Of a stretch of DNA of 64,000 bases, positions 58,611 to 61,501 are shown piece by piece. Under the pieces are notes generated by a model. It did not search any database. It was not told the DNA's origin and saw only the letters and a list, made by a program, of their open reading frames with translations. The DNA is from Mycolicibacterium baixiangningiae (lineage in GTDB: Bacteria > Actinomycetota > Actinomycetes > Mycobacteriales > Mycobacteriaceae), in the NCBI RefSeq assembly GCF_016313185.1, contig NZ_CP066218.1, forward strand, positions 1,240,001-1,304,000. Direction: 5' to 3'. Made by a program: the position numbers and the translations under genes. The number at the start of each line of letters is the position of its first letter. Position 1 is the stretch's first letter.

Positions 58611-58659
58611 TTTCGGCGTGCGCAGTCGCGCTGACCGCGACTGCGCACGCCGAAATCGC
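58607..58659. repeat. Palindromic repeat GTGATTT..AAATCGC, copy 2
   Basis: The 24-base arms (58607-58630 and 58636-58659; 23 of 24 paired) flank a five-base loop. Ends begin GTGATTTCGGCGTG. It overlaps the stop codons of both convergent genes, acyltransferase and chorismate mutase, and would act as a bidirectional terminator. Confidence 0.8.
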
Positions 58660-58922
58660 TAGTGGCCGAGGCGGCCGCGGCCCAGGCGCAGCAGCAGCAT
58701 CGCGAGGTCCTTGCCCTCCGGGCCGAGCACGCTGTAGCGCTCGATGACCTTCATCTCACGGTTGTGCACCAGACGGGTGCCGCCGGAGGCCATCCGGACC
58801 TTGCCGATGATCTTGGAGACCTCGGCGCGCCGCTGCACGGCCGCGAGGATGGCGGCGTCGAGGTCGTCGATCTCCTGGCGCAGGGCGTCGATGTCGGGCG
58901 ACGGGTCTGTTTCGATGCTCAT
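58659..58922 (-). CDS. Chorismate mutase, AroQ type
   Basis: The 87-residue protein is the intracellular mycobacterial chorismate mutase (Rv0948c type), which converts chorismate to prephenate for Phe and Tyr synthesis. Helix 1 IDALRQEIDDLDAAILAAVQ, RRAEVSKIIGKVRMASGGTR and REMKVIERYS are almost identical to M. tuberculosis MtCM, including the LLLRLGRGRLGH C terminus that contacts DAHP synthase. GAGGAG precedes the ATG at 58922; a longer form from 58958 is possible. A Phe/Tyr-rich leader peptide and a hairpin lie upstream. Confidence 0.94.
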   Translation of the reverse strand: MSIETDPSPDIDALRQEIDDLDAAILAAVQRRAEVSKIIGKVRMASGGTRLVHNREMKVIERYSVLGPEGKDLAMLLLRLGRGRLGH

Positions 58923-58985: not shown

Positions 58986-59016
58986 AGCCCCGGATCCGGA
59001 AGCGGACCGCGGGGCT
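58986..59016 (-). terminator. Terminator-like hairpin in the chorismate mutase leader
   Basis: On the minus strand AGCCCCG pairs with CGGGGCT, with an inner TCCG/CGGA stem, followed by CTTCTCTTGTG, a pyrimidine-rich run. It lies 10-40 bases after the leader-peptide stop and 64 bases before the mutase ATG, the position expected for an attenuator. Confidence 0.6.
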
Positions 59017-59026
59017 GGGGAAGCAG

Positions 59027-59083
59027 CTAGACCACGGGCACCGCAGGCCGGTACCCGTAGAAAAATCGCTGCGTGTCACGCAC
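59027..59083 (-). CDS. Leader peptide, Phe/Tyr-rich, upstream of chorismate mutase
   Basis: A GTG-started 18-codon frame encodes MRDTQRFFYGYRPAVPVV and stops at 59027. Phe-Phe-Tyr-Gly-Tyr is the regulatory amino-acid cluster expected for attenuation of an aromatic pathway gene. CACACT ends seven bases upstream with TTGCGC 18 bases before it, giving a leaderless mRNA. The codons overlap a stable hairpin (ACGGGTACCG / CGGTGCCCGT), and the terminator-like hairpin follows. Absence of Trp codons fits control by Phe/Tyr. Not proven to be translated. Confidence 0.65.
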   Translation of the reverse strand: MRDTQRFFYGYRPAVPVV

Positions 59084-59155: not shown

Positions 59156-61501
59156 ATGAGTGTGAACGTGACTGAACCGAGATCCAGGCCCGACAGCGGG
59201 CCCGAGGAGCTGCTCGACGGCCTCAACCCCCAGCAGCGCCAGGCGGTTCTGCACGAGGGCTCGCCCCTGCTGATCGTGGCCGGTGCGGGTTCGGGCAAGA
59301 CCGCGGTGCTGACCCGCCGCATCGCCTACCTGCTGGCCGCCCGCGACGTCGGTGTGGGTCAGGTGCTGGCCATCACGTTCACCAACAAGGCCGCCGCGGA
59401 GATGCGCGAACGCGTGGTGGGGCTGGTGGGTCCGCGCGCCCGATCCATGTGGGTGTCGACATTCCACTCCACCTGCGTGCGGATCCTGCGCAACCAGGCG
59501 ACACTGCTGCCCGGCCTGAACTCGAACTTCTCGATCTACGACGCCGACGATTCCCGCCGGTTGCTGCTGATGATCGGCAAGGATATGGGCCTGGACACCA
59601 AGAAGTACTCGCCCCGCCTGCTGTCCAACGGCATCTCCAACCTGAAGAACGAGCTGATCGGGCCCGAACAGGCCGCCGCCGAGGCGTCGGAGGCCGCCGA
59701 CGACCTGGCCCGCATCATCGCCGAGGTCTACGCGGAGTACCAGCGCCGGCTGCGGTCGGCGAACGCACTCGACTTCGACGACCTGATCGGTGAGACGGTC
59801 GCTGTGCTGCAGCGTTTCCCGCAGATCGCGCAGTACTACCGCCGCCGGTTCCGCCACATCCTGGTCGACGAGTACCAGGACACCAACCACGCCCAGTACA
59901 TGCTGGTGCGTGAGCTGGTGGGCCACGACCTCCCCGAGGACGACGGGGTGCCTCCCGCGGAGTTGTGCGTGGTGGGCGACGCCGACCAGTCGATCTACGC
60001 GTTCCGCGGCGCCACGATCCGCAACATCGAGGACTTCGAGCGGGACTACCCCAACGCCACGACCATCCTGCTGGAGCAGAACTACCGCTCCACCCAGACC
60101 ATCCTCAACGCCGCCAACTCGGTGATCGCCCGCAACACCGGCCGGCGGGAGAAGCGGCTGTGGACCGACTCCGGCCAAGGTGAGCTGATCGTCGGCTACG
60201 TCGCCGACAACGAGCACGACGAGGCCCGCTTCGTCGCGAGTGAGATCGACCGGCTCGCCGACCAGGGTGGCTACAACTACTCAGACGTCGCGGTGTTCTA
60301 CCGCACCAACAACAACTCACGCGCACTCGAAGAGGTGTTCATCCGCGCCGGCATCCCGTACAAGGTGGTCGGCGGCGTTCGCTTCTACGAGCGCAGGGAG
60401 ATCCGCGACATCGTCGCCTACCTGCGGGTGCTCGACAACCCCGGTGATTCGGTGAGCATGCGCCGCATCCTCAACACCCCGCGGCGCGGGATCGGCGACC
60501 GGGCGGAGGCGTGCGTCGCGGTGTACGCCGAGAACACCGGCAGCAGCTTCAACGACGCCCTTCAGGCCGCGGCCGAGGGCAGGGTGCCGATGCTCAACAC
60601 CCGCTCGGAGAAGTGCATCACGAGCTTCGTGCAGATGCTCGACGATCTGCGCGGCCGCCTGGGCGACGAACTCGGTGAGCTGGTCGAGGCGGTGCTCGAC
60701 CGCACCGGCTACCGCGCGGAGCTCGAAGCGTCCAACGATCCGCAGGACCTCGCACGGCTGGACAACCTCAACGAATTGGTCAGCGTCGCGCACGAATTCA
60801 GCATCGACCGGGCCAACGCCGCCGCACTGGCCGAGGACCTCGACGAACCGGTCGACGAGGACGTCCCCGACACCGGTGTGCTGGCCCAGTTCCTCGAGCG
60901 GGTGTCACTGGTAGCCGACGCCGACGACATCCCCGAGCACGGCTCGGGCGTCGTCACCATGATGACGCTGCACACCGCCAAGGGGCTGGAGTTCCCGGTC
61001 GTGTTCGTCACCGGCTGGGAGGACGGCATGTTCCCGCACATGCGGGCCCTGGGCGACCCGAACGAACTGTCCGAGGAACGCCGACTGGCCTACGTGGGCA
61101 TCACCCGGGCCCGGCAACGGCTCTACCTCAGCCGGGCGAAGGTGCGCTCGTCGTGGGGGCAGCCGATGCTCAATCCCGAATCGCGGTTCCTGCGCGAGAT
61201 TCCGCAGGAACTCATCGAGTGGCGGCGCACCGATCCGACGCCGTCGTTCAGCGCACCGGTCAGCGGTGCGGGGCGGTTCGGCTCACCAGATCAGCGACGA
61301 CCGGCCCCCGGCCGGTCCGGTGCGGGTAAGCGCCCGTTGATCGTGCTCGAGCCCGGCGACCGCATCACCCACGACAAGTACGGGCTGGGCCGCGTCGAGG
61401 AGGTGTCCGGGGTCGGTGAGTCGGCTATGTCGCTGATCGATTTCGGCAGCGCCGGACGCGTCAAGCTCATGCACAACCACGCGCCGGTGAGCAAGCTCTA
61501 G
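59156..61501 (+). CDS. uvrD1: ATP-dependent DNA helicase UvrD1 (UvrD/PcrA family)
   Basis: The 781-residue superfamily-1 helicase has motif I VAGAGSGKTAVLTRRIAYLL (about 41-60), the DEXX box VDEYQDTNHAQYM near residue 237, and TAKGLEFPVVFVTGWEDG near residue 605. It unwinds DNA 3' to 5' in nucleotide excision repair, and in mycobacteria UvrD1 is reported to work with Ku. The start region ELLDGLNPQQRQAVLH is typical. The C-terminal 60 residues carry the Tudor-like RNA-polymerase-binding motif (GDRITHDKYGLGRV). Its stop overlaps that of the convergent membrane protein. Confidence 0.95.
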   Translation: MSVNVTEPRSRPDSGPEELLDGLNPQQRQAVLHEGSPLLIVAGAGSGKTAVLTRRIAYLLAARDVGVGQVLAITFTNKAAAEMRERVVGLVGPRARSMWVSTFHSTCVRILRNQATLLPGLNSNFSIYDADDSRRLLLMIGKDMGLDTKKYSPRLLSNGISNLKNELIGPEQAAAEASEAADDLARIIAEVYAEYQRRLRSANALDFDDLIGETVAVLQRFPQIAQYYRRRFRHILVDEYQDTNHAQYMLVRELVGHDLPEDDGVPPAELCVVGDADQSIYAFRGATIRNIEDFERDYPNATTILLEQNYRSTQTILNAANSVIARNTGRREKRLWTDSGQGELIVGYVADNEHDEARFVASEIDRLADQGGYNYSDVAVFYRTNNNSRALEEVFIRAGIPYKVVGGVRFYERREIRDIVAYLRVLDNPGDSVSMRRILNTPRRGIGDRAEACVAVYAENTGSSFNDALQAAAEGRVPMLNTRSEKCITSFVQMLDDLRGRLGDELGELVEAVLDRTGYRAELEASNDPQDLARLDNLNELVSVAHEFSIDRANAAALAEDLDEPVDEDVPDTGVLAQFLERVSLVADADDIPEHGSGVVTMMTLHTAKGLEFPVVFVTGWEDGMFPHMRALGDPNELSEERRLAYVGITRARQRLYLSRAKVRSSWGQPMLNPESRFLREIPQELIEWRRTDPTPSFSAPVSGAGRFGSPDQRRPAPGRSGAGKRPLIVLEPGDRITHDKYGLGRVEEVSGVGESAMSLIDFGSAGRVKLMHNHAPVSKL

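Follow-up and report, generated by a model that had tools for sequence, protein, structure and literature searches.

The window, as we call the whole stretch of 64,000 nucleotides analyzed, carries on its minus strand, at 58659..58922, a gene whose product is a type II chorismate mutase (CM; PF01817, E 4e-10), the enzyme named in an earlier note on this DNA. The protein is a relative of the intracellular chorismate mutase Rv0948c of M. tuberculosis, the structure of which has been solved (2qbv); the M. tuberculosis mutase itself found no identical match among 294 genomes, the best listed being 80-92%. The divergent uvrD starts at 59156 on the opposite strand. Between the two genes lies a minus-strand leader of ~160 nt, in which a -10-like CACACT is followed 7 bases on by a GTG, the frame VRDTQRFFYGYRPAVPVV, two hairpins (P1 and P2) and the CM gene. 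The frame runs from 59083 to 59027 (GTG 59083-59081, 18 sense codons, TAG 59029-59027) and bears Phe-Phe-Tyr-Gly-Tyr at 59065-59051, just as the earlier note had described it. UUU UUC UAC (Phe7, Phe8 and Tyr9; 59065-59057) are the putative control codons, and Phe7 is UUU in most loci.

The candidate promoter of a leaderless transcript (59120-59091) consists of TTGCGC at 59120-59115, a spacer of 18 bases and CACACT at 59096-59091, an arrangement that had also been noted before and was found as described. A [CT]AnnnT box, 5-8 nt ahead of an in-frame start codon, is present in 81/81 Mycobacterium loci and 29/38 loci from the rest of the order (a lenient test), and in 79 of the 81 Mycobacterium loci it reads CACACT or CAGACT. 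A pattern scan of the region (701 bases) gave no match to a sigma-70 consensus promoter. The same scan listed four terminator-like sites, with 0.2 expected in shuffles, and two of these are overlapping entries inside the P2 hairpin. Another terminator-like site in the scan is formed by a small hairpin at the leader start (59082-59064) followed by the run of Ts in the Phe codons; RNA polymerase might pause at this hairpin. The 161-nt leader folded at -75.4 kcal/mol (z -3.9), and none of 200 shuffles was equally good. No second copy of the leader was found in the same genome, where the next match (E 0.068) is an intergenic hairpin without an F/Y leader.

The CM gene has two possible in-frame starts. 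The earlier note used the one at 58922; an upstream in-frame ATG (58958-58956) lies closer to the terminator-like hairpin. Among 82 loci with the leader, the corresponding ATG is in frame with CM in only 44, out of frame or stopped in 14 and absent from 24, so the annotated N-terminus of CM is possibly wrong in some species.

The leader can form three mutually exclusive helices. P1 (segments 1:2; ACGGGUACCG / CGGUGCCCGU, arms 59058-59049 and 59043-59034) has 10 pairs with one G-U and overlaps the Tyr codons, which bears out the second hairpin proposed in the earlier note. P2 (segments 3:4), the terminator-like hairpin placed there upstream of CM, was recovered at 59016-58986 by folding, covariation and the pattern scan; it is followed by the tail CUUCUCUUGUG, which in the window (CUUCUCUUGU) is without a long U run. 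The third helix was missing from that description and is what makes the element a switch. This antiterminator pairs the loop and 3′ arm of P1 with the 5′ arm of P2: its segment 2 strand (CGGCCUGCGG, 59050-59041) pairs with segment 3 (CCGCGGUCCG, 59012-59003).

We assessed these pairings in an alignment (A3) of 64 sequences, comprising 26 Mycobacterium loci hand-picked for variety from 81 and all 38 loci from the rest of the order; three loci (L015, L084 and L088) were left out of the rows for P1, P2 and the antiterminator, the columns of which were picked after inspection of the sequences. The antiterminator columns (28-37:90-99) share bases with both P1 and P2, so that its formation excludes each of them. 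P1 and P2 together were 92.2% paired, with 46 cells changed on both sides versus 15.2 in shuffles (0/500), and the antiterminator was 80.2% paired, with 45 such cells versus 15.9 (0/500). By a coarser count of pairs changed on both sides, P1 and P2 reached 9 versus 6.1 in shuffles (21/500); the antiterminator, at 5 versus 3.4 (75/500), was not clearly above chance. All measures dropped when the pairing partners were slid along A3. Across the order, covariation includes U-G pairs, and many antiterminators are perfectly paired (GGACUCCGG with CCGGAGUCC); Mycobacterium carries a G-C for C-G exchange in the same columns.

Because the shuffle control for A3 ignores relatedness, we also compared each locus with its nearest relative, as judged by the CM gene. 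Own arms paired better than, equally to or worse than the relative's in 28, 18 and 7 cases for P1 (p 1.6e-5), 20, 12 and 7 for the antiterminator (p 3.7e-4) and 20, 13 and 6 for P2 (p 7e-4). When arms were exchanged freely over 118 loci, the z scores of the own arms were -7.1 for P1, -4.6 for P2 and -7.8 for the antiterminator; one locus was omitted from this test as its arm was not found (L079), and in three the segment 3 pattern took an earlier site (L127, L132 and L150). Within Mycobacterium alone, where the sequence hardly varies, the signals were weak for P1 (125/5000 permutations as good) and the antiterminator (161/5000; relatives 6 better, 5 equal, 4 worse), and P2 showed no covariation (3851/5000).

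Folding of five sequences with the ribosome footprint removed gave an antiterminator-like fold as the lowest-energy structure in two with a stall at Phe7 and in none with a stall at Phe8; in the window, the Phe7-stalled fold used an antiterminator register different from the covarying one. Since stalled folds seldom favor the antiterminator, the switch must depend on which helix folds first, as known attenuators do. A fourth pairing (s4:s5), of the 3′ arm of P2 with the region just downstream, seemed to covary at first (0/2000), but it won only 19/75 folds, and a small CCG/CGG hairpin inside P3, a further helix described below, may account for its variation; we dropped it.

The comparison in at least ten mycobacteria that the earlier note had suggested as a check supported its proposal. 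The named loci examined are the best 80 of 281 confirmed CM loci, and leaders were called by ungapped peptide matches on both strands, as searches requiring a start codon or a strict motif missed loci. The peptide RFFYGYRxAVPVV or a close form lies at the same place in 70/80 of them, with the hairpins kept and with a compensatory pair change in P1 among mycobacteria, and the leader is carried by 14 of 15 loci drawn from the window's own genus. The 84 leaders are highly alike in DNA (80 distinct rows), and a covariance model of the leader (R1) matched 264/297 genomes of the genus.

A normal leader is missing from 10 of the 80 named loci. Loci without it include five (L019, L070, L075, L077 and L086) in which the GTG of CM itself stands 6 bases past a -10-like box, at the corresponding place; the box is a clear GGCACACT in L019 and L075 and weaker in the other three. 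A GTG frame after GGCACACT lacks the Phe-Tyr run in three loci (L026, L029 and L033), and P2 is lost from two (L084 and L088). One named strain (L037:1300-1500) has a rearranged leader, QRRFCFSNSYGQWYAEPVV, in which the outer hairpin arms seem to survive despite the changed peptide.

The element is far wider than the mycobacteria, the group to which the earlier note had addressed itself. Across the order, R1 matched 124/249 genomes, 97 of them outside the genus, and from these 97 we fetched 40 matches, chiefly higher-ranking ones. In 38 of them, CM follows an FFYG-type peptide and then a terminator-like hairpin; the remaining two were short partial matches and were dropped (L163 and L166), as was the stray 101-base stretch L218. 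Aligned to the CM of the window, the 38 CM proteins all score at least 122, and the 10 weakest all pass the Pfam CM_2 cut-off. A wider model (R2) matched 99/345 genomes of the class; many of these matches lie close to the threshold, and 75 of the genomes fall outside the order. Of 39 further loci from R2, 22 precede CM, 8 from two other families precede DAHP synthase, which Pfam identified in 8/8, and 9 precede neither. Leaders before CM were found in 12 families of the class (f1, f2, f4, f7, f8, f14, f15, f16, f33, f36, f46 and f50). A provisional result that the other genera of this family lack the leader (0/15 loci) proved partly wrong: R2 finds it before CM in five of them (g10, g12, g18, g22 and g24). 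At a loose threshold, R2 matched 63/121 genomes of the window's own family.

These wider loci show several variants. In some genera of the window's own family (loci L205-L208, L209, L211 and L212), the CM leader has drifted to WRFPSGYRP, RRFLSGYRP, LWRFFSQ or LWRYFTC, often gaining Trp and partly losing Phe-Phe-Tyr. Nine loci (L184-L191 and L203) from one large-genome genus of another family (6.8-9.9 Mb) encode FTYG.RP..CHGRAA or a close form, followed by a terminator-like hairpin before CM. The leaders before DAHP synthase (L195-L200, L219 and L220) are rich in F, W and Y, often reading MQRNFWRFYGYRP, and show the same hairpin pattern; several combine Trp, Phe and Tyr codons.

We propose, with a probability of about 0.85, that the leader belongs to the ribosome-mediated attenuators of the Trp/Phe type and puts chorismate mutase under the control of charged tRNA-Phe and perhaps tRNA-Tyr. 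Its most likely effect would be to raise the output of the CM gene when phenylalanine runs short. The leader GTG would itself be the transcription start, and a ribosome would load on the leaderless 5′ end. With ample Phe, this ribosome would reach the UAG and cover segment 2, leaving segments 3 and 4 to form P2, and transcription would stop. Under Phe shortage, it would halt at UUU UUC and cover segment 1, preventing P1; free segment 2 would then pair with segment 3, P2 would be blocked and the mutase gene would be transcribed. Of this scheme, the comparison shows the frame and its codons, the three exclusive helices, the link to CM and the broad distribution; the transcription start, the stalling, the response to amino acids and, in Mycobacterium, termination are inferred.

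The Phe/Tyr attenuator reading of the earlier note was thus supported by the comparison, with a shift in emphasis from both amino acids towards phenylalanine. Phe7 is the rare codon UUU in 80/81 Mycobacterium loci and 36/38 loci from the rest of the order (116/119); UUU makes up 2/58 of the Phe codons in five open reading frames of the window. Tyr9 is kept in 75/81 and 36/38, respectively, in peptides that across the order mostly keep FFYG or something close to it. Tyr stands at residue 11 in 81/81 Mycobacterium loci and in 21/38 outside the genus, the others having N, I, T, R, H or C, and a base altered at this residue often changes along with its P1 partner (column 25:39). Going by the size of the ribosome, a stall at Phe7 would cover the 5′ arm of P1 and leave most of the antiterminator strand free, whereas one at Tyr11 would cover that strand. 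Since Tyr11 varies outside the genus and Phe7 is nearly always kept, and since a Phe7 stall, unlike one at Tyr11, would leave most of the antiterminator strand free, Phe is the likelier and best-supported signal. The codon before UUU, CGA (CGA through Phe8, window 59068-59060), is invariant in Mycobacterium (53/53 rows of alignment A1); it lies outside all helices and is rare in the window's open reading frames (9/188 CGN codons).

It is possible, if on the whole unlikely, that the same sensor has another output in Mycobacterium, where stalling would act mainly on translation by altering a helix, P3, on the Shine-Dalgarno sequence. In the window, P3 (58985-58929) pairs the terminator tail (58985-58970) with 58945-58929, which covers the Shine-Dalgarno GAGGAG (58934-58929) of the 58922 start. 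With L084 and L088, which have lost P2, excluded, P3 could form in 75/75 distinct Mycobacterium sequences (-10.6 to -25.9 kcal/mol), and its own arms beat exchanged ones (0/5000 permutations; relatives 24 better, 2 equal, 14 worse, p 0.014). Covariation of P3 was not seen in the order loci outside the genus (3587/5000). The U-run after P2 is also weaker in Mycobacterium: runs of at least four occur in 5/80 loci versus 16/38 outside the genus, and the mean longest run is 2.31 versus 3.50 (p 2e-8). P3 goes with a shorter U-run in Mycobacterium only. Other features argue against translation as the main output. In many species, the P3 arm lies at least 10 bases upstream of the CM start and misses the Shine-Dalgarno sequence; P3 is clearly better than with shuffled downstream regions in only 44/75; and with segment 3 removed it remained the favored fold in 56/75, which is the wrong direction for an induced gene. 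The weak U-run and the genus-specific helix on the window's Shine-Dalgarno sequence together suggest that translation may also be controlled in Mycobacterium, with P3 backing up a weak terminator at that level.

Some arrest peptides, of which TnaC is a type, halt the ribosome on a small-molecule cue, and the nascent FFYG.R..PV could in principle do the same. The strong conservation of the peptide within the genus, including position 11 (81/81), would fit; across the order, however, the residue at position 11 and those at the C terminus differ between loci. In L055, L062, L063 and L073, where Pro gives way to Ser and the Gly codon GGG to GGA, P1 persists despite the altered peptide, and Phe7 is held to a single one of its synonymous codons, UUU, a constraint that peptide arrest would not need. 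This codon constraint holds across the loci compared. We therefore consider this reading very unlikely. That the region, lying as it does between divergent genes with uvrD starting nearby, holds only an unregulated upstream frame with a simple terminator, or else a DNA element belonging to the uvrD promoter, with no amino-acid sensing, is barely plausible given that the element precedes CM in distant loci of the order and class, that its RNA covariation includes U-G pairs and that relatives precede DAHP synthase.

The CM leader, read as a Phe-responsive attenuator, is a new family among the Trp/Phe-type attenuators. The E. coli pheA attenuator has a family of its own in Rfam (Phe leader), and its leader, pheL, is Shine-Dalgarno-led. 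It resembles the CM leader in its Phe codons, its alternative hairpins and the chorismate mutase activity of the gene product. It differs in that the E. coli enzyme is bifunctional (CM-PDT, according to the available part of PMC11802643) and in that the window CM leader is without an Rfam match at the gathering score. Across the region, Rfam covariance models gave 7 matches up to E 5, none of them, Phe leader included, at the gathering score, and five leader peptides drew no NCBIfam match. An aroR attenuator before aroF of C. glutamicum was reportedly described by Neshat in 2014, and a 2020 paper by Canestrari is said to call mycobacterial poly-cysteine short ORFs leaderless in its title. As far as the available parts of the sources go, the aroR attenuator is the closest known precedent, an actinobacterial Phe-Tyr-Phe leader peptide at an aromatic-pathway gene (PMC11802643, PMC4046766) that responds to limitation of Phe and not of Tyr (PMC11802643). 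By description, it differs in controlling DAHP synthase with F-Y-F, where the window has chorismate mutase and FFYG; the class-level leaders before DAHP synthase may be its relatives.

Among mycobacterial systems, the ilvB1 attenuator of M. tuberculosis likewise has a short ORF with control codons, an antiterminator and a terminator, and differs in its branched-chain amino acids, gene and sequence (PMC13236596, in the part available). The poly-cysteine short ORFs of mycobacteria also stand ahead of biosynthetic genes (PMC4633059, PMC13236596 and PMC1262725, each in the text available); they differ in their Cys codons, of which the window frame has none, in being termed translation attenuation (PMC13236596) and in that no conserved terminator hairpin was observed there (PMC1262725). 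Seliverstov and others predicted trp, cys and leucine-related elements and T-boxes in Actinobacteria and, in the available portion of their paper, found no conserved structures before genes of other amino-acid pathways (PMC1262725). The eight entries of an S. lividans leader-peptide table include none for Phe, Tyr or CM in the text available (PMC8079986), and Stav and others, in the accessible part of PMC6429828, give two candidate upstream ORFs with F and Y near shikimate genes, in five genomes and no actinobacterium. The main text of PMC13236596, as available, mentions neither chorismate nor Rv0948c, a statement that does not extend to locus names in one extended figure. In the available text of the literature searched, which also included PMC9094748, PMC2965389 and PMC10219788, with subscription papers mostly and supplementary tables outside its scope, no CM attenuator in Actinobacteria was reported.

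On a broader and more tentative view, for which the odds are well short of even, the leaders, with their leaderless FFYG-type peptides and three exclusive helices, belong to an ancient actinobacterial attenuator family that coordinates the entry step of the aromatic pathway, DAHP synthase, with its Phe/Tyr branch, CM. In Mycobacterium this U-run terminator would have become a two-level switch, the old terminator tail now serving as the anti-Shine-Dalgarno strand. If so, one sensor would act on both transcription and translation. Descriptions of chorismate mutase control in this group mostly concern the protein, namely its activation by DAHP synthase. The proposed attenuator would add control at the gene level to CM, the branch enzyme for Phe and Tyr, and may offer a Phe-responsive part for actinobacterial engineering. 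The losses and changes of the leader amount to natural mutants, and its spread over 12 families together with these mutants therefore makes it a testable case of how a terminator switch evolves where intrinsic termination is weak.
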